From positions 124,001 to 188,000 of the forward strand of contig MTMD02000002.1 in the NCBI GenBank assembly GCA_002010065.2: a stretch of 64,000 nucleotides of DNA, written 5' to 3'. The position numbers and the translations under genes are program-made. The notes below the pieces were generated by a model. That model was not told where the DNA came from. It ran no database searches and saw nothing but the letters and a program-made list of their open reading frames with translations. Positions 5,574 through 16,466 of the stretch are shown piece by piece; the first letter of the stretch is position 1; the number at the start of each line of letters is the position of its first letter. This DNA is from Candidatus Pyrohabitans jungbluthii. GTDB lineage: Archaea; Hydrothermarchaeota; Hydrothermarchaeia; Hydrothermarchaeales; BMS3B.

Positions 5574-6215
5574 ATGGTTAAGGTAAAGATATGTGGGAAC
5601 ACAAGCATCGCTGACATTGAGTTGGTCTCTGAGCTAGGTGCAGACTTCGCAGGTTTTATAGTTGAGGTGCCCGTGGATACGCCGCGGAAGATTACCCTAG
5701 CTGAGGCTGAGAAGATAATGGAGGAGATGCCCTTTACCACCGCTGGCGTTATGGTTATAATGCCTCAGAGCGTGGAAGAAGCTTTGAACATGTACATGGC
5801 GGTTCGCCCCGACTTCCTTCAACTGCATGGCAACGAGTCTCCAAAGTTCGTGCGGGAGCTTCGCGGCTTGGTGTCGTGCAACATAATCAAAACCATCCAC
5901 GTCAAGGGCGAGGAAAGCATCTCCGAAGCTAAGCGCTACGTCAACTACGTGGATGCGATACTCCTGGACACCCCCTCTCCGCAGCAGGGAGGCTCAGGCA
6001 GGACCCACGACTGGGAGGTCTCGCGAAAAATAGTGGAGAGCATACCCAAGCCCGTGATACTTGCGGGAGGGCTTACCCCTGAGAACGTTGCCGAGGCTAT
6101 TGAGATAGTCAAGCCATACGCAGTGGACGTTTCCAGCGGCGTCGAAGCTGAGCCTGGAAAGAAGGACCCGGAGAAGGTCAGGCGCTTCATTGCCCAGGCA
6201 AAGGGATTGGAATGA
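5574..6215 (+). CDS. trpF: Phosphoribosylanthranilate isomerase
   Basis: 213 residues, a complete TIM barrel. It catalyses the Amadori rearrangement of phosphoribosylanthranilate. The catalytic Cys7 (KICGNTS) and Asp132 (AILLDTPS) are both present, as are the phosphate-binding loops GGSGRTHDW, VILAGGLTPENV and VDVSSGVE. It follows trpD in the same direction and overlaps the next gene by 4 bp (ATGA), so the TrpF-like paralog is translated together with it. Confidence 0.96.
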   Translation: MVKVKICGNTSIADIELVSELGADFAGFIVEVPVDTPRKITLAEAEKIMEEMPFTTAGVMVIMPQSVEEALNMYMAVRPDFLQLHGNESPKFVRELRGLVSCNIIKTIHVKGEESISEAKRYVNYVDAILLDTPSPQQGGSGRTHDWEVSRKIVESIPKPVILAGGLTPENVAEAIEIVKPYAVDVSSGVEAEPGKKDPEKVRRFIAQAKGLE

Positions 6216-6775
6216 CAAAGCTCAAGGTGACTGTCTCCTCCAAGGAGGAGGCGAGACATGCTGTGCCTTTTGCCAGCGCCATAGGGGTTAGCGTAGATGT
6301 TAACAGCAGGGAGAGCATCCTTGCGGCAAGGGAGATATTCGCAAGTCTTCCTATCTTCCTATACACCGTGGCTGAGATTGAGCCGAGATTTGCTGCTCAA
6401 GCAATGCGCGTTTATGAGCTCGCTGCCCCTCACGCACTCGAAATTAGAGGAAGCGAAAAGCCTGAGTACCTCAAAAAACTACGCTCAAAGCTGGGGTGCC
6501 ATGTGATAAAGTCTCTCGAGGGTGGCGACGCAGAGAAGGTCGCGAAGTATGCGGAAGCCTGCGATGCCATCGCCATTAAGCTTGCTAAGCCTGAGGTGGA
6601 ACTTGGGCTCAGGTTGAAGGGCTTGACTCCCAAGCCCGTGATTTTCTCCTTTTACGAGGTTAATGAGAGCGTAGAGGATTTTCTGGCTGAGGTCAAGCCC
6701 TTTGCAATAAGCCTGAGCTTTAAGCAGCTTGCAGGGCAAAGGATTAATAGCCTCCTCGCCAAATTATCTCCATGA
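6212..6775 (+). CDS. TrpF-like paralog without catalytic residues
   Basis: 187 residues. It aligns along most of its length with the TrpF encoded immediately upstream: LEIRGSEKPEYLKKLRSKLGCHVIKS matches LQLHGNESPKFVRELRGLVSCNIIKT, and LTPKPVIFSFYEVNESVEDFLAEVKPFAI matches IPKPVILAGGLTPENVAEAIEIVKPYAV. The catalytic Cys is Thr7 and the catalytic Asp aligns with Lys; the GGSGRTHDW segment and both phosphate loops are gone. The frame is intact and coupled by ATGA overlaps on both sides, so it is expressed. A tandem duplicate kept as a scaffold, TrpF partner or new binding protein is the likeliest reading; isomerase activity is not expected. Confidence 0.8.
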   Translation: MTKLKVTVSSKEEARHAVPFASAIGVSVDVNSRESILAAREIFASLPIFLYTVAEIEPRFAAQAMRVYELAAPHALEIRGSEKPEYLKKLRSKLGCHVIKSLEGGDAEKVAKYAEACDAIAIKLAKPEVELGLRLKGLTPKPVIFSFYEVNESVEDFLAEVKPFAISLSFKQLAGQRINSLLAKLSP

Positions 6776-8142
6776 GGGAACTGTTTTCCTTCCTCTCTGA
6801 GGAGCGCGTTCTCGTTGATAAGGAAGACCTGCTCCTATACTCCTACGACGCAACGCCTTCACGAAGGTATCCCATCGCCGTGGTTAGGCCGGTAAGCACA
6901 GAAGAGGTTGTGGAAATCGTAAAGGTGGCTTCACGAAAGCGAATACCTCTCGTCGCTCGCGGTGCCGGCACGAGCCTGAGCGGTGCCCCACTTCCCTGCG
7001 AGGGCTGCATTGTGGTGGACTTCTCGCTGATGGATGAGATTATTGAAGTGGATGAGGTCAACGCCTTTGTTGCTGTGCAACCCGGCGTGGTGTATGAGGC
7101 GCTTAACCGTGAGCTGGCGAAGCACGGGCTCTTTTTTCCACCTGACCCTGGAAGCGGAAGCGTTTGCACCATCGCGGGCATGGTGGCAATGAACAGCTCA
7201 GGCATACGCGCCGTGAAGTATGGCACCACTCGCGACTACGTTGCCTCGCTTGAGGTTGTGCTCGGCACAGGCAGAGTTGTTAAGCTTGGCGGGAGGTACA
7301 AGAAGAGTTCATCCGGCTACGACCTCAAAAGCCTCTTCGTTGGGAGTGAGGGGACGCTGGGGCTCTTTACAGAGATAGGGCTCCGCGTGATACCTAGGCC
7401 AAACCACCACGCGGCTATGATTGCGCACTTCGACGACTTCACAGAAGCTGGGAAGGCTATAACCCAAGCTATGGCAAAGCGCCTTGACGTGGCTGTGCTG
7501 GAGGTTATGGACTCCCTGGTTGTGGAAGCCGTGGAAAGCTTCTCAGGCATAAACCTGGGCTCAGCCGAGGCTCTCGTCTTAGCTGAGGTTGAGGGCTTTG
7601 ACGCTAACGTTAAGGAGGAGATTCGCAGGATTGCGCAGGTTTTCACCCGGAGAGGGGCGAAGGTGGAGCTTGCCTTCGACGAGGCAGAGATCGCTCGCCT
7701 GTGGCGTGCTCGAAAGGCTGCACTTCCAGCGTTGGCGCGCCTCGCAAGCACACTGCTGCTCGAAGATATCACTGTGCCCGTCTCGGCGCTGCCCGAGATG
7801 ATGCGTAGAATTCGCGGCATTGGCCAGAGGCATAACATTAGAATCGCCACCTTTGGTCACGCTGGAGACGGCAACCTGCACCCAACTTTTCTCGTAGAGA
7901 ACGAGGAGGAGATGCGCAGGGTGAGCGCTGCGATAGAGGAACTGTTCAGGGAGTGCCTCTCTCTCGGGGGCACCCTCTCGGGAGAGCACGGCATTGGCAC
8001 CGAGAAGCGCCGGTATTTCGAGCTTGAGCACGGCTACGCAACGCAGGTAATGCGCGAGATAAAGCGCGCCCTTGACCCAAAGAACATCCTCAACCCAGGA
8101 AAGATTTTTTATGGAAGGCAAGCTTATTTTAAGCTGAGATGA
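6772..8142 (+). CDS. GlcD-type FAD-linked 2-hydroxyacid dehydrogenase
   Basis: 456 residues, usual length for the glycolate oxidase GlcD/D-lactate dehydrogenase family. The FAD-binding PCMH domain shows RGAGTSLSGAPLP and GSVCTIAGMVAMNSSG; the C-terminal substrate domain shows TFGHAGDGNLHP and LGGTLSGEHGIGTEKR. It oxidises a 2-hydroxyacid (D-lactate, glycolate or similar) with flavin. No GlcE or Fe-S GlcF subunit is adjacent, so the electron acceptor is unknown. It overlaps the TrpF-like gene and the QueH-like gene by ATGA, placing a redox enzyme inside the trpF cluster. Confidence 0.93.
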   Translation: MRELFSFLSEERVLVDKEDLLLYSYDATPSRRYPIAVVRPVSTEEVVEIVKVASRKRIPLVARGAGTSLSGAPLPCEGCIVVDFSLMDEIIEVDEVNAFVAVQPGVVYEALNRELAKHGLFFPPDPGSGSVCTIAGMVAMNSSGIRAVKYGTTRDYVASLEVVLGTGRVVKLGGRYKKSSSGYDLKSLFVGSEGTLGLFTEIGLRVIPRPNHHAAMIAHFDDFTEAGKAITQAMAKRLDVAVLEVMDSLVVEAVESFSGINLGSAEALVLAEVEGFDANVKEEIRRIAQVFTRRGAKVELAFDEAEIARLWRARKAALPALARLASTLLLEDITVPVSALPEMMRRIRGIGQRHNIRIATFGHAGDGNLHPTFLVENEEEMRRVSAAIEELFRECLSLGGTLSGEHGIGTEKRRYFELEHGYATQVMREIKRALDPKNILNPGKIFYGRQAYFKLR

Positions 8143-8672
8143 AAAAGAGGCTTCTATTGCATGTGTGCTGCGCTCCAGACGCTACTGTGCCCTACCAGCG
8201 ACTCAAAGATGAGTACGAGGTAATCGCCTTCTTCTACAACCCCAACATCCACGGAGAGGAGGAGTATCAGAAGCGCCTGCACGAGGTGGAGAGGCTTGCG
8301 AAGCTCTGGGACTTCCCTCTAATAGTTGGGGAGTACAACGTGGAGCAGTGGTTCAGCGCAGTTCGAGGCCTTGAGGATGAGCCAGAAGGGGGCAAGCGCT
8401 GCGAGGTGTGCTACTCGCTGCGCTTGGAGGAGACGGCAAAGCTTGCGAAGGAGCTTGGATGCGAGGCTTTTGCAACAGTGCTCACCATAAGCCCCCACAA
8501 GAAGGCGGAGAAAATAAACGCCATAGGTAAAGAAGCAGGCGAAAGACACGGCATCGCTTACCTTGAGTCTGACTTCAAGAAGAAGGATGGGTTTAAAGAG
8601 AGTGTCAGGATAAGCAGAGAGCTTAATCTCTACCGGCAGAACTACTGCGGCTGCAGGTTTTCTATGAGGTAG
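8139..8672 (+). CDS. QueH-like (DUF208) protein
   Basis: 177 residues. The conserved cysteines of the QueH/DUF208 family are all present: HVCCAPD at the N terminus, CEVCYSLRL in the middle, and YCGCRFS at the C terminus; FFYNPNIH and TVLTISPHK are also family motifs. Bacterial QueH reduces epoxyqueuosine to queuosine in tRNA using an [4Fe-4S] cluster and an extra iron. Archaea normally make archaeosine, so the substrate in this organism is uncertain. It is the last gene of the trpD-to-queH run and overlaps glcD by 4 bp. Confidence 0.85.
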   Translation: MKKRLLLHVCCAPDATVPYQRLKDEYEVIAFFYNPNIHGEEEYQKRLHEVERLAKLWDFPLIVGEYNVEQWFSAVRGLEDEPEGGKRCEVCYSLRLEETAKLAKELGCEAFATVLTISPHKKAEKINAIGKEAGERHGIAYLESDFKKKDGFKESVRISRELNLYRQNYCGCRFSMR

Positions 8673-10284: not shown

Positions 10285-11592
10285 ATGGTTAGAGTTGCGA
10301 TAATCGGCGGCAGCGGCGAATTTGGCAGACTTTTTGCGAGAGTTTTCGCCGAGGAGGGGCACGAGGTTGTTATCACGGGCAGAGACCAGGCAAAGGGGGA
10401 GCGAGTAGCTAAGGAGATAGGTGTGCGCTTCTCGCGAGATAACGTCGCTGCCGCGAAGTGGGGGGACATAGTGATAATAAGCGTGTACATAGACAACACT
10501 GTCGAGGTTATAAAGCAGGTGGCGCCGCACGTGCGGGAGGGCTCGCTTCTAATGGATGTCACCAGTGTAAAGGTGGAGCCGTGCAAAGCGATGCTCGCCC
10601 ATGCCAGGCGAGGCGTGGAGATTATAGGCACCCACCCTATGTTCGGACCCCGCGTAACCAGCTTCGAAGGCTTGGTGTTCATCCTCACGCCGTTGCGAGG
10701 AGAGAAGTGGAAGCGCTGGCTTCTCGAGTGGCTGGAGAAGCACAAGGCGAGGGTGATAGTAACCACGCCAGAGGAGCACGACAGAATAATGAGCGTTGTT
10801 CAGTGCCTGACCCACTTCACCTACATAAGCGTAGCCTCAACGCTACGCGAGCTTGGCATTGACGTTAAATACTCCCGCCGCTTTGCCTCGCCGATTTATG
10901 AGCTGATGCTGGACCTTATCGCGCGCATTGTGGGGCAGAACCCCCACCTCTACGCCAGCATACAGATGCACAACCCCCTCGCCACGAAGGTGCACGACAC
11001 CTTCATATCGCAGGCTTCCAAGCTGCGTGGGATAGTCGCAGCCAAAGACAAGCGCGCTTTCGTTGACCTCATGGCCAAGGCAGCGCGTCACATGGGCGAC
11101 GTCGAGGCGGCGATGGGGCGCAGCGACAAAGCTATACACGCGCTGAGCGAGGAGCTCAAAAAGCTCAAGGAGAGCATAGGCAAAGAGGTTGCGCTCCGCC
11201 ACCTCTACTCTGGAGCGGTGCATATGGGCAGGGTGGTGGAGGTTGACCCGGAGAAGGTTACGCTCATAGCAGGCAAGAAAAAGGTAACCCTCAAGATAGC
11301 CAATGTGGAGCTTCTGCCCGAGGAGGAGCTTCTGCGCTACAAAGCTGAGCACCTGCCAAAGGAAAGGCGGGACTTTTCTGTTGTTTTGCCGGAGGGTGCG
11401 GATGAGAAATTTATCGCATCGCTCCTTCGGCACAGCATACGTGGAGCACTCACCTGCGAGGTCATAGACATCTACCGCGGAAAGCAGATTCCCCAGGGAA
11501 TGAAAAGCGTTACCTTCCGCGTGATTGGCGTTGACCTCGACTTTGCACAGGTGGAGCGCTTCCTGCGCGGCATAGGTGGTAGGCTAAGATGA
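10285..11592 (+). CDS. tyrA: Prephenate dehydrogenase with C-terminal FDX-ACB domain
   Basis: 435 residues. Residues 1-270 are prephenate dehydrogenase: NAD-binding AIIGGSGEFGRLFARVF, then the catalytic-His segment IIGTHPMFGPRV and an all-helical dimer domain. It makes 4-hydroxyphenylpyruvate for tyrosine. A small beta-rich linker (about 300-355) leads to a C-terminal domain (about 362-435) whose RRDFSVVLPE, EVIDIYRGKQIPQGMKSVTFRV and final FLRGIGGRLR match the ferredoxin-fold anticodon-binding (FDX-ACB) domain that ends the PheRS beta chain. Its role here is unknown; RNA or amino acid sensing are possibilities. Overlaps the convergent signal peptidase gene by 9 bp. Confidence 0.9.
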   Translation: MVRVAIIGGSGEFGRLFARVFAEEGHEVVITGRDQAKGERVAKEIGVRFSRDNVAAAKWGDIVIISVYIDNTVEVIKQVAPHVREGSLLMDVTSVKVEPCKAMLAHARRGVEIIGTHPMFGPRVTSFEGLVFILTPLRGEKWKRWLLEWLEKHKARVIVTTPEEHDRIMSVVQCLTHFTYISVASTLRELGIDVKYSRRFASPIYELMLDLIARIVGQNPHLYASIQMHNPLATKVHDTFISQASKLRGIVAAKDKRAFVDLMAKAARHMGDVEAAMGRSDKAIHALSEELKKLKESIGKEVALRHLYSGAVHMGRVVEVDPEKVTLIAGKKKVTLKIANVELLPEEELLRYKAEHLPKERRDFSVVLPEGADEKFIASLLRHSIRGALTCEVIDIYRGKQIPQGMKSVTFRVIGVDLDFAQVERFLRGIGGRLR

Positions 11593-12178: not shown

Positions 12179-13123
12179 TTAAAATTCTCCAAGCTGCTCC
12201 ACGCTACACTCGCTTGCGGGCTTATCTAAGCGGAGTCTCACGAAACGGGGCATGCGCAGCCTTAAATCGCGGGTCACCGAGTCGTACGCTATTTCAGCTA
12301 CGAACTCTGGCTTTACAAAGCTCGCCTCCTTCACACCTTCATAGCCAGCCAGCTCCAGAGAGTTCACGCGAAGCTTTTCAAGCTGCTCTCTCAAGCTACG
12401 TAGCGTGGCTTCGTCAAAACCTGTGCCCACCTTGCCCACGTAGCGCAGCTCGTCGCCATGATAGAGCGCAAGTAGGAGCGCCCCAAAGCTCTCCTCTCGC
12501 TCACCTTTGCCTTTTGTGAAGCCTACAATAATGCAGTCCACACTCTTAATCCGCTTTATCTTGAGCCAATCGCTGCTTCGCTTTCCAGGATCGTAGATGC
12601 TCTTCTTCCGCTTCGCCACTATGCCCTCGAGGCCAAGTTTAAGCACAGCCTCGTAGTAAGCCTCGCCGTGCTCCTCAACGAAGTCTGCTATGACTACGTG
12701 TTTCCCCTCCCTCAGCGCTTCCCTCAGCACCTCCTTTCGCTTCATGAGGGGCGTGTTAAGTAGCGACTCGCCTCTATAAGCCAAGATGTCAAACACCACG
12801 TAGCTCGCTGGAAAGCGCTTCGCCAGGTAGGCGACGCGCTCCTGCGGGGCGTTGAGCCTCTCTATCGCAAGCTGAAAGTCTGGCTTGCCCCCGCGAAGCA
12901 CCACAATCTCGCCGTCGAGAATCGCTTTGCTGGAGACCAGCTCCTTGAGCTCCGTAAGCTCCGGAAAGGCTTCGAGCAGCTCATTACCCCGCCTGCTCCT
13001 TATGCTCAGCTTGGTGTCAATATAACTTATGGCGCGAATCCCATCCCACTTAACCTCAAAAATCCAATCGGGCGAAGAAAAGGGCTTTCTTGCTGTCTTT
13101 GCAAGCATCGGTTTAATAAACAT
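12179..13123 (-). CDS. ATP-dependent DNA ligase of the NHEJ (LigD/LigC) type
   Basis: 314 residues, the size of a LigD ligase domain, lacking the N-terminal DNA-binding domain of replicative archaeal ligases. Adenylated lysine Lys25 lies in EVKWDGIR; RSRRGN, ILDGEIVV, FDILAY, GLEGIVAK and SSDWLKIKR are motifs Ia, III, IIIa, IV and V. An OB domain follows with VGKVGTGFDE and the family end FEVAYDSVTRDLRLRMPRF-like segment. It seals breaks held by Ku. It starts 3 bp after the Ku stop and is the last gene of the five-gene operon. Confidence 0.95.
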   Translation of the reverse strand: MFIKPMLAKTARKPFSSPDWIFEVKWDGIRAISYIDTKLSIRSRRGNELLEAFPELTELKELVSSKAILDGEIVVLRGGKPDFQLAIERLNAPQERVAYLAKRFPASYVVFDILAYRGESLLNTPLMKRKEVLREALREGKHVVIADFVEEHGEAYYEAVLKLGLEGIVAKRKKSIYDPGKRSSDWLKIKRIKSVDCIIVGFTKGKGEREESFGALLLALYHGDELRYVGKVGTGFDEATLRSLREQLEKLRVNSLELAGYEGVKEASFVKPEFVAEIAYDSVTRDLRLRMPRFVRLRLDKPASECSVEQLGEF

Positions 13124-13126
13124 CTT

Positions 13127-13924
13127 CTACTCCTGCTTTGCCTTGAGTTCCTCCACAGTCTTTCGCAGGGCTTCCATTAGGCTCTTAACCTCCTCCTTTT
13201 CCGCCTCCTCCACCACGACGACCTCGCCCGCTAGCTTCTTGTTGATAAGCTCCTGAAGCCTCTCCACGTAGGTATCGCGGTAGCTCGCTAAGTCAAACTC
13301 CCCCGAAAGCGCGTCCACTATCGTCGCCGCCAGCTCCAGCTCCTCCTCAGGGGGCTCCTTTATGCCCTGGAGCTCCTCCATGTCCTGTGGACTTACAACC
13401 TCATGAGGATAGTGCAGCGTCGTCGCGATCAGCGCACCCCTGTAGGGGTGTACCAGTACTGGATATTCTTTAGAGCGGAGCGTAAGCCTGCCCGCCCCAG
13501 CTTTGCCCGTGCGCTGAAGGGTATATAAGAGCAGGGCATACGCCTCCTCGCTCTTATCAGGGGTGAGGATGTAGGAGGTGTGGAAGTATATCGGGTCAAC
13601 GCTGGCAAGGTCAACAAACTTCTCAAGGGCTATCTTCTTACTCGAAGCCGGCTTAATAGCCTCAAGCTCTTCTTCCTCAAAGACCACATACTCACCCTTG
13701 CGCACCTCGTAACCTTTAACTATTTCTTCCAGGGGGACCTCCTCACCGCACTTGCTACACACCCGTTTAAATTTTATTGGCGCGTTGTCTCTGCGGTGAA
13801 GCATGCGGAAGGAGAAGACCTTCTCTCGAATCATGGGGTAGAGCTTTACGGGCACGTTGACCAGGCCCACCGTTATACTCCCGCTCCATATCGCCCGCTT
13901 TGGCGGCTTAGCGCTAAGCTCCAT
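13127..13924 (-). CDS. ku: Ku, bacterial-type DNA end-binding protein
   Basis: 265 residues. The start AIWSGSITVGLVNVPVKLYPM and RVCSKCGEEVPLEEIVKGYEV are the conserved N-terminal blocks of the homodimeric bacterial Ku, which encircles DNA ends and recruits LigD. A short acidic and basic C-terminal tail follows the beta-barrel core. It overlaps the polymerase gene by 11 bp and lies 3 bp before the ligase gene, so expression is coupled. Ku is rare in archaea. Confidence 0.96.
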   Translation of the reverse strand: MELSAKPPKRAIWSGSITVGLVNVPVKLYPMIREKVFSFRMLHRRDNAPIKFKRVCSKCGEEVPLEEIVKGYEVRKGEYVVFEEEELEAIKPASSKKIALEKFVDLASVDPIYFHTSYILTPDKSEEAYALLLYTLQRTGKAGAGRLTLRSKEYPVLVHPYRGALIATTLHYPHEVVSPQDMEELQGIKEPPEEELELAATIVDALSGEFDLASYRDTYVERLQELINKKLAGEVVVVEEAEKEEVKSLMEALRKTVEELKAKQE

Positions 13925-14729
13925 ACCTCACCTCCAGCCTCTGAGGCTCAAAGAACCCGCACCAGGGGTCTCCCCTCTCAGGTACAGTATTTATATTCAA
14001 CTCCACAGGTGATAAACCTTTCTCCAGCTCTTCCCAGGCGAGAGGCGTTGAAACCGGCGCCCCTTCCAGGGGGCGCAGTGAGTATGGCGCCGCCATGGTC
14101 TTGCCCACGGCGTTCTGGGCATAGTCTATTTTAACCTCTTTTCTGAGCTTGGCAACGAAGCGCCCAAGCTCGCGCACAAATGCTCGAGTGTCCTTGAAGG
14201 AGTACTCCCTCACAATGGGAATGAGCACATGCAGTCCCCTCTTGCCCGAGGTTTTAACGTAGCTCCTTAACCCAAGCTCCCTCAGCCTGTCGTTAATCAG
14301 AAGCGCCACCTCGCGAGCTTCGGCGAAGCCGGAACCTTGAGCCGGGTCTATGTCTATGAGCACTATATCAGGCTTCTCAAAATCGTCCACCCTTGATAGC
14401 GTGACGTTTATCTCCAAGCTTGCAAGGTTAGCCATCCACAAAAGCGTGTCCAGGTCGTCGCCCACGATGTAGTTAACATAGCGCTTTGCGTGCTCTGAAT
14501 AACGCCTAAATGTTTTCACCCAGCTTGGGGTATGCGAAGGGGCGTCCTTCTCAAAGAAGCCTTTGCCTGCGATGCCATCGGGAAACCGGTGCATAACCAC
14601 AGCTCGCTTCCTAAGGTAGGGCAGCATCTTCGGCGCTACCTTGATGTAGTACTCAATCACCTTCGCTTTGGTAATACCCGGAAAAAGCTCCTTGCTGAGG
14701 TTGGTGAACTTTACCTTAGTCAGCTCCAA
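13914..14729 (-). CDS. LigD-type NHEJ primase-polymerase
   Basis: 271 residues, a stand-alone copy of the polymerase domain of bacterial LigD (archaeo-eukaryotic primase superfamily). The metal-binding D-x-D is in VLIDIDPAQGSG, the conserved Ser/His loop is KTSGKRGLHVLIPI, and IDYAQNAVGKTMAAPYSLRP ends the catalytic core. It fills gaps and adds nucleotides at ends bridged by Ku, preferring ribonucleotides in known relatives. It overlaps the Nudix gene by 14 bp upstream and Ku by 11 bp downstream. Confidence 0.95.
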   Translation of the reverse strand: MELTKVKFTNLSKELFPGITKAKVIEYYIKVAPKMLPYLRKRAVVMHRFPDGIAGKGFFEKDAPSHTPSWVKTFRRYSEHAKRYVNYIVGDDLDTLLWMANLASLEINVTLSRVDDFEKPDIVLIDIDPAQGSGFAEAREVALLINDRLRELGLRSYVKTSGKRGLHVLIPIVREYSFKDTRAFVRELGRFVAKLRKEVKIDYAQNAVGKTMAAPYSLRPLEGAPVSTPLAWEELEKGLSPVELNINTVPERGDPWCGFFEPQRLEVRYGA

Positions 14730-15150
14730 CTTCTATCCCCCTCTCCACTAAAAACTCCCTCGCCGCCTTGAGCACGCGCTTGGCATTGGCATACGTAACC
14801 CTGGCGTATGCCTCCTGGAATGGAAGCCACGCATAGTCCACGTGCTCATAGCTCAGCGTAACCTCGCTGGTTTTAGCCTCCGCCAAGTAGAACACCACCT
14901 CCTTGTATACAAGCTCCCTGCCCGAGCGGTAGAAGTACTCTATCTTCTCCTTGAAGCCGGGGATAATCTCCAGCTCATTTATGCCGGTCTCTTCCTCCGC
15001 CTCCCGGAGAAGCGTTTCAATCTCACTCTCCCCCTCCTCTATATGCCCCTTCACAAAATCCCAGTGGCCTGCGCCGTACTTGAGCAGGAGGTACTCTACC
15101 CTCGAGTTCCTCTTGAATATAACCGCACCCGCACTCTTCTCTCGCCTCAA
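14716..15150 (-). CDS. Nudix hydrolase inside the NHEJ operon
   Basis: 144 residues. The full Nudix box G-x5-E-x7-REAEEETGI is present (GHIEEGESEIETLLREAEEETGI region, about residues 35-57). The opening KSAGAVIFKR and GHWDFVKGHIEEGE resemble diadenosine tetraphosphate hydrolases. It overlaps the 3'-phosphoesterase gene by 4 bp and the polymerase gene by 14 bp, so it is made together with the break-repair proteins. It could remove Ap4A (a by-product of ligase adenylates) or damaged nucleotides that the polymerase might insert; this role is inferred from position only. Confidence 0.92.
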   Translation of the reverse strand: MRREKSAGAVIFKRNSRVEYLLLKYGAGHWDFVKGHIEEGESEIETLLREAEEETGINELEIIPGFKEKIEYFYRSGRELVYKEVVFYLAEAKTSEVTLSYEHVDYAWLPFQEAYARVTYANAKRVLKAAREFLVERGIEVGAD

Positions 15151-15605
15151 TCTTTCTCCTCCTTAGCTTTGAAAAAGAGCCACGCGTTTTCGCCGCCTTT
15201 CTTGAAACGCAGCAGTACGTAGCGTCCCCGCAGCTTCTCGCCCTTTAGGTGAAATACTATCTTCTCATCCTTCCTGCTCTCCAGCTCATAGCTGCCGCGA
15301 TCCCAGATTTTCACCTCACCCGCGCCGTACATACCTTCTGGAATAACCCCCTCGAAGTTTGCGTACTCTAAGGGGTGCTCCTCTGTTTGAATCGCCAGTC
15401 TGCGCACGCCTTGCTCAGTGGGCGGCGGCTTTGGAATCGCCCAGCTTTTGAGCACACCGTCCATAGCCAAGCGAAGGTCATAGTGAAGCCTTCTCGCATG
15501 ATGCTCCTGCACAACAAAGATGTTCTCATGCTTTGCCTTCTCTTTAGGCTCTGGTTCAGGCGTTTTGGAGAAGTCGCGCTTCCGCTGGTATTCTTCAAGG
15601 CTCAT
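15147..15605 (-). CDS. LigD-type 3'-phosphoesterase
   Basis: 152 residues, a stand-alone copy of the LigD phosphoesterase (PE) domain. YQRKRDFSKTPEPEP, EHHARRLHYDLRLAMDGVLKSWAIPKPP (His and Asp metal ligands), and GVIPEGMYGAGEVKIWDRG are the family blocks. It trims 3' phosphates and ribonucleotides at ends before ligation. The longer frame reaches 15785, but MSLEEYQRKRDF at 15605 starts the domain, and a TTAAGTTTTA-like TATA element lies about 25 nt upstream. First gene of the operon and divergent from aroD. Confidence 0.94.
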   Translation of the reverse strand: MSLEEYQRKRDFSKTPEPEPKEKAKHENIFVVQEHHARRLHYDLRLAMDGVLKSWAIPKPPPTEQGVRRLAIQTEEHPLEYANFEGVIPEGMYGAGEVKIWDRGSYELESRKDEKIVFHLKGEKLRGRYVLLRFKKGGENAWLFFKAKEEKD

Positions 15606-15731
15606 TGGTATTGTTTTGTAAGGATAAAACTTAAGGGTAGCGCTTGTGCGGAGTTGCAAGTTGCGATTAAAGTGGGAGAGGTGAGACTTTAAATAACCCT
15701 TTCGCCCAGTAATAAAATGAGGTGGGTGAAA
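15606..15731. promoter_or_regulatory. Divergent promoters of the NHEJ operon and aroDE
   Basis: For the plus strand CTTTAAATAA at 15687-15696 is a TATA box about 25 nt before 15717-15720. For the minus strand a TTAAGTTTTA-like box lies near 15622-15632, placing the start of transcription close to the PE start codon. No repeat suggesting an operator was seen. Confidence 0.55.
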
Positions 15732-16466
15732 ATGGCAAGAATACTCCAGCGAACGCCTGCAGTATGCGCTTCGATAATAGAGCACTCAGTGGACGAGTTT
15801 TTAAACACAGTGCGTTTAGCCAAGGATGCTGATATAATTGAGCTTCGCGCCGATGGGCTGAAGTTTGAGAGCTCAAGCGAAAGAGCTTACGAAGCCGAGG
15901 TTAAAAGACTTCTCAAAAATGTTCGCCTACAGACGGAACTCCCTATAATCCTAACAATACGAAGCGAAAAGGAGGGTGGAGTTTTTCCTGGTAGCGAGAA
16001 GGACATCGCCCTGTGCTTGAAGGAAGGGCTGAGGCAGGCTGACGCCGTGGATGTGGAGCTGCGCATGAATTTAGAGCTTCGCGACGAGATAATTCAGCTG
16101 GCTAAAAGCAGCGACGTTGATGTTATAGTTTCCTTCCACGACTTTAACGAGACACCAGAAGTGGATACGATGTGCGGAATAATTGAGGAGGAGGTTGATG
16201 CTGGCGCGGATATAGCAAAACTTGCAGTAACCGCAAGATCCAAACGCGACGTGGTGAATCTGCTGAAGGTGACGCAGGAGATGAGCGAGCGCCTTGATGT
16301 GCCAATAGTTACCATTTCCCTTGGCGAGCTTGGGAGGGTTACAAGGATCGCAGCACCTATGCTGGGCTCGGCGATAACCTACGGGTATGTGAATCGCGAA
16401 ACCGCGCCGGGACAGCTCAGTGTTAAGGAGCTGAAGCAGATGCTCTCAGCGTTAGGTGGAGCGTAG
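15732..16466 (+). CDS. aroD: Type I 3-dehydroquinate dehydratase
   Basis: 244 residues. It converts 3-dehydroquinate to 3-dehydroshikimate through a Schiff base. The Schiff-base lysine is in ADIAKLAVTAR, the catalytic His in VSFHDFNETP, and IELRADGL and PMLGSAITYGYV are further substrate loops. In-frame ATG codons lie at 15717 and 15732; GAGGTG at 15719-15724 favours 15732, while the TATA box position would also fit a leaderless start at 15717. The aroE start codon directly follows its stop. Confidence 0.94.
   Translation: MARILQRTPAVCASIIEHSVDEFLNTVRLAKDADIIELRADGLKFESSSERAYEAEVKRLLKNVRLQTELPIILTIRSEKEGGVFPGSEKDIALCLKEGLRQADAVDVELRMNLELRDEIIQLAKSSDVDVIVSFHDFNETPEVDTMCGIIEEEVDAGADIAKLAVTARSKRDVVNLLKVTQEMSERLDVPIVTISLGELGRVTRIAAPMLGSAITYGYVNRETAPGQLSVKELKQMLSALGGA

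Follow-up and report, generated by a model that had tools for sequence, protein, structure and literature searches.

What would a domain resembling the anticodon-binding part of phenylalanyl-tRNA synthetase (PheRS) do at the C-terminus of an enzyme of tyrosine biosynthesis? This question is raised by tyrA, a gene for a prephenate dehydrogenase (TyrA) of the PRK08655 type, which occupies positions 10285–11592 of the forward strand in the window, the term used here for the whole stretch of 64,000 nucleotides of Candidatus Pyrohabitans jungbluthii that was analyzed.

Domain organization of TyrA and identity of its C-terminus

The ORF starts with an ATG at 10285, ends with a stop codon at 11590–11592, and encodes a protein of 435 amino acids. 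The NCBIfam model NF006408, named prephenate dehydrogenase, matched residues 3–435 with a score of 519.7 bits against a cut-off of 422, and because this match runs the full length, the C-terminal extension belongs to a modelled family. The catalytic core, which spans residues 17–264, was found to be intact, with Pfam matches far above the cut-offs to the nucleotide-binding domain PDH_N (residues 17–159, positions 10333–10761 of the forward strand; PF02153, E = 2.2e-31) and to the dimerization domain PDH_C (residues 161–264, positions 10765–11076, same strand; PF20463, E = 2.5e-25), and H117, Q173, and H177 were invariant in 42 relatives. From the PDH_N and PDH_C domains, the protein is predicted to be an archaeal TyrA, and it was the sole PDH_C protein as well as the sole FDX-ACB (ferredoxin-fold anticodon-binding) protein detected in the genome. 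The 3' end of tyrA (11584–11592), including the codon for the terminal Arg, was also observed to share 9 bases with a signal peptidase ORF that runs convergently.

Beyond the core, an SH3/Sm-like barrel (residues about 301–343, positions 11185–11313, forward strand), which was delineated by the strands of an AlphaFold2 model and by weak matches to the RimP SH3 domain in 4 of 42 TyrA C-termini, is followed by an FDX-ACB domain (residues about 357–435, positions 11353–11589, forward strand), which was delineated by PF03147, the relatives, and the same model. The PF03147 match covered residues 357–414 and profile positions 3–61 of 94, with an E-value of 8.7e-8 and a score of 32.9 bits, the gathering score being 31.1 bits. 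Our alignment comprised the C-termini of 42 TyrA proteins. These came from Hydrothermarchaeota, the phylum to which Methanothermococcus belongs, and Diapherotrites, plus a genome that stands by itself in its phylum. Of these C-termini, 41 matched PF03147 and none matched an ACT profile, both at E-values up to 0.01. The profile of these C-termini retrieved PheRS beta chains from the PDB with a best E-value of 2.3e-5 and no other family at E < 0.05, and a profile built earlier from ten of them matched bacterial PheT ORFs at about 27–51 bits. Chance similarity to FDX-ACB was rejected on these profile matches in both directions, and an ACT identity on the lack of an ACT match in the 42 members.

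The AlphaFold2 model of the C-terminus had a mean pLDDT of 91.8, with the FDX-ACB part mostly above 90, and consisted of a five-stranded small barrel (strands 23–28, 34–42, 46–51, 54–59, and 63–65 in the numbering of this model), a helix, and then a strand-helix-strand-strand-helix order of elements, which is ferredoxin-like. A Foldseek search with this model returned many PheRS beta chains (2rhs with an E-value of 5.7e-5, as well as 2iy5, 7ka0, and others), and MscS was also among the top matches. MscS combines an Sm-like barrel with a ferredoxin-like domain, and its kinship was dismissed as fold resemblance, with 41 of 42 sequences matching FDX-ACB and none matching an MscS family. The full-length model had a pLDDT of 93.1, and its core was closest to TyrA of H. 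influenzae (2pv7, TMt of 0.89). Taken together, the profile matches and models indicate that the C-terminal extension consists of an SH3/Sm-like barrel and, after it, a domain that is truly homologous to FDX-ACB of PheRS beta. The preliminary description, in which the gene was read as a fusion of prephenate dehydrogenase and FDX-ACB with a PheRS-beta-like C-terminus, is thus borne out with respect to the ORF, the Pfam score, the relatives, and the structure comparison, and the C-terminal motifs that it quoted are present in the translation.

Retention of the residues that read G34 in PheRS

In human mitochondrial PheRS (hmit-PheRS), the residues that recognize G34 of tRNA-Phe are Asp364 (N1 and N2), Phe366 (stacking), Ser375 (O6), and Arg414 (N7), the counterpart of Phe366 in T. 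thermophilus PheRS being Tyr731, and the substitution Asp364Gly in the human enzyme brings aminoacylation below detection (PMC7540514). Alignment to T. thermophilus PheRS placed its residues 729 (Asp), 731 (Tyr), and 742 (Ser) at D395, Y397, and S408 of TyrA, and the near-terminal Arg of PheRS at R435, which is the C-terminal residue. Among 55 TyrA domains, the position of D395 (11467–11469), which corresponds to hmit-PheRS Asp364, was occupied by Asp in 50, Glu in 4, and Ser in 1, and that of Y397 (11473–11475), which corresponds to Phe366, by Tyr in 52 and Phe in 3. Ser was present at the position of S408 (11506–11508), the equivalent of Ser375, in 54 of the 55, and Arg at that of R435 (11587–11589), the equivalent of Arg414, in all 55, all four codons being on the forward strand. 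The complete set of four was found in 49/55 domains, or in 53/55 when Glu, which occurs at this position also in some bacterial PheT, was counted for Asp.

When the 81 domain positions were ranked by weighted conservation over the 42 TyrA, D395, Y397, S408, and R435 took ranks 10, 3, 9, and 1, respectively. If four positions were picked at random, the naive probability of all of them falling in the top ten would be 1.3e-4, a value that makes the case look stronger than it is, as conserved positions occur in clusters. For the positions conserved in PheT, defined by a conservation of 70% or more among the PheT sampled, mean retention in TyrA was 93% for the four G34 contacts and 56% for the other 15. 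Furthermore, the alignment indicated that D, Y, S, and R are retained in five loci (L123–L127) in which the P-x-G-x-K part of the loop is altered, and that the contacts are likewise retained in two others (L142 and L147) in which the loop between the G34 residues is altered. D363, S365, K407, T410, and G431 were conserved equally to the pocket residues, and therefore part of the conservation is structural. As judged by these alignments, the G34 residues are selectively retained, while neighboring residues conserved in PheRS have drifted. This retention of the pocket is the main new evidence, and it argues for continued use of the domain on a guanine, most simply one in RNA. The idea that the domain couples aromatic amino acid supply to the state of tRNA(Phe/Tyr), which had been raised in the preliminary description, is strengthened at the level of sequence because all four G34 residues of PheRS are kept.

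Distribution, genomic context, and the tRNA background

The archaeal sampling covered Hydrothermarchaeota, the Methanothermococcus phylum, Diapherotrites, and the lone genome, with other phyla serving as controls only. In Hydrothermarchaeota, FDX-ACB was present in 19/23 genomes (13/14 of good quality), and, fragments aside, the ORFs that carried it were of the length of TyrA. In the phylum around Methanothermococcus, 29/36 genomes contained a TyrA scoring above the full-length cut-off, and in Diapherotrites 6/87 contained one that matched the model over nearly its full length. Among the archaeal control genomes, only Methanocaldococcus jannaschii had an FDX-ACB match; none was found in Haloferax volcanii, Sulfolobus acidocaldarius, or Methanosarcina acetivorans. 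The closest named relatives were Candidatus Pyrohabitans sp. JdFR-17, with 95% identity in the C-terminus, and other Hydrothermarchaeota. The earlier impression that FDX-ACB is unusual on a TyrA does not hold, given the full-length NCBIfam models, the naming of the extension as 'REG' in 2005, and its wide presence in Hydrothermarchaeota, the Methanococcus-related phylum, and some DPANN.

In a tree of the domain, the TyrA sequences were separated from bacterial PheT by a branch with an SH-aLRT support of 99%, although the tree had only 93 columns with unsure inner forks, and the PheT sample was biased to Elusimicrobia, Bacillota, and Planctomycetota. This separation from the sampled PheT argues against recent capture of a bacterial PheT domain in this lineage, as far as the few columns allow, and the pattern is consistent with one fusion followed by descent. 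Three Methanococcus-related genomes (G052–G054) had no FDX-ACB match, their TyrA stopping directly after the barrel, which is probably the result of one event of loss. H313 of the barrel (11221–11223) was invariant in the TyrA bearing FDX-ACB and was Tyr in all three without it, and this replacement hints that the barrel and FDX-ACB may work together.

Around tyrA were trpD, trpF, a glcD-like gene, a QueH family gene, aroK, the signal peptidase gene, genes for Ku and of the LigD type, aroD, and aroE. In three relatives (L031, L035, and L036), aroD and aroE are found upstream of tyrA and share its strand, which places tyrA among genes of the aromatic pathway. An ORF of 187 amino acids between trpF and the glcD-like gene (6212–6775, forward strand) resembled a degenerate copy of TrpF by eye, and no match to it was found in Pfam or NCBIfam. 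On the reverse strand at 12179–15785 of the window, we also noted a cluster of the bacterial NHEJ type, in which Ku, a LigD primase-polymerase, and an ATP-dependent ligase are separate genes accompanied by NUDIX-like and phosphoesterase-like ORFs (both named by eye), and which adjoins tyrA in two relatives too (L022 and L023).

With respect to tRNA, the PheRS beta of the genome itself is a 550-residue protein of the archaeal type that matches the whole archaeal model, and FDX-ACB was absent from it in the profile search. The possibility that the TyrA domain is a missing part of the archaeal PheRS is therefore unsupported. The genome encodes tRNA-Phe with the anticodon GAA and tRNA-Tyr with GUA, but 15 of its tRNA species carry G34, and recognition through the pocket would therefore not suffice to single out Phe or Tyr. 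Genes for queuosine were also present: a QueH family gene at 8139–8672 of the window (forward strand), QueA just upstream of the window (G000:C2:121685–122674), and a bacterial-type tRNA-guanine(34) transglycosylase (Tgt) over the cut-off at G000:C2:385651–386727, in addition to a longer TGT of archaeal size. This gene set predicts the occurrence of queuosine at tRNA position 34 in Candidatus Pyrohabitans jungbluthii. Queuosine has no N7; if it is present at position 34 of tRNA-Tyr, the contact of Arg with N7 would be lost there and tRNA-Phe may be the favored ligand. An article whose text does not contain the word Hydrothermarchaeota described queuosine genes in 34 archaeal genomes (PMC8204110).

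Possible function of the C-terminal module and related systems

The best explanation, to which we assign a probability of about 50%, is that this protein is a TyrA with an RNA-binding regulatory module that most likely senses a G34-bearing tRNA, that of Phe or Tyr. In such a mechanism, the FDX-ACB domain would bind the anticodon loop of tRNA-Phe (GAA) and/or tRNA-Tyr (GUA), the barrel would add contacts to RNA or relay a signal, and the binding or release of the tRNA would change the activity or location of TyrA. The response to tRNA could thereby tie the supply of tyrosine to the demand of translation. More tentatively, from the same conserved residues and the queuosine genes, the archaeal TyrA may be tRNA-responsive in the sense that it reads G34 of tRNA-Phe and/or tRNA-Tyr through an anticodon pocket of synthetase origin and tunes the synthesis of tyrosine according to how tRNA is charged or used, with tRNA-Phe favored here if tRNA-Tyr carries queuosine.

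FDX-ACB and ACT share a common ferredoxin-like topology, and a serious rival, which we nevertheless consider unlikely, is that the domain has taken on an ACT-like role in which it senses tyrosine (or phenylalanine) allosterically and has lost its contact with RNA. In other lineages, TyrA bears ACT, as in B. anthracis (5uyy, with L-tyrosine; 7mqv is the version without ACT). Tyrosine is reported to inhibit prephenate dehydrogenase of M. maripaludis, an effect that is cited and ascribed to REG by Song et al, 2005 (PMC1173090) and that can be explained by small-molecule allostery, which counts against the reading of tRNA. However, the catalytic core can also be the site of inhibitor action (PMC1173090), the scan that gave 41 FDX-ACB matches among 42 members gave none for ACT, and conservation falls on the guanine-reading residues, not on an ACT ligand site. 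The existence of three Methanococcus-related TyrA without FDX-ACB also counts against the reading of tRNA, and it would be in keeping with a structural relic that aids only folding or oligomerization, the conservation reflecting constraints of the fold, as may the equal conservation of several residues outside the contacts. This is improbable in view of the invariance of an Arg that ends the protein or lies close to its end (55/55) and the persistence of D, Y, and S despite the changed loop between them.

The same pocket conservation could also be accounted for by binding of an mRNA or its leader, in which TyrA would repress its own or another aro/trp transcript through a hairpin resembling an anticodon loop. 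The location of tyrA near aromatic-pathway genes in several relatives would suit such repression, but the neighbors of tyrA vary between groups and the pocket does not, and we regard it as still more doubtful than a structural relic. The least probable alternative is that the old G34 pocket senses a free guanine nucleotide. The guanine base itself is contacted by the four kept residues (PMC7540514), but no phosphate-binding motif was noticed and no precedent was found. Sensing of a G34-bearing tRNA is the reading that we prefer.

The combination of TyrA and FDX-ACB is already known as an architecture, and the protein is an ordinary member of its family with a testable prediction. Song et al introduced the name 'REG' for the C-terminal extension found in several archaeal TyrA, related it to COG4937, and predicted it to be regulatory (PMC1173090), the only article in which our literature search found COG4937. 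The same search found no link of FDX-ACB or an anticodon-binding domain to prephenate dehydrogenase, and database entries may already name the domain. Newer COG lists presumably name the REG/COG4937 domain as well. From our analysis, a specific biochemical role that is open to test, and at low cost, as the prediction rests on four residues, can be proposed for this predicted regulatory extension. If tRNA is bound, an enzyme of amino-acid biosynthesis would be linked directly to a tRNA anticodon in archaea whose PheRS is without the domain, and this would be an example of synthetase parts reused in metabolic control.

Among known systems, the archaeal TyrA-REG proteins (PRK08655; NCBIfam NF006407 to NF006411; COG4937) represent the same family over the full length, and in the literature searched on them the extension is called only a predicted regulatory domain, with neither its anticodon-binding identity nor its intact G34 pocket found to be discussed. 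TyrA with an ACT domain (B. anthracis 5uyy) is similar in joining a dehydrogenase core to a C-terminal ferredoxin-like domain, whereas the archaeal members scanned had no ACT match. The FDX-ACB domain of bacterial PheRS beta and mitochondrial PheRS (PF03147) is homologous to that of TyrA and has the same four G34 residues, but in TyrA it is fused to a dehydrogenase instead of a synthetase and has, by alignment, a shorter segment connecting the third strand to the last helix.
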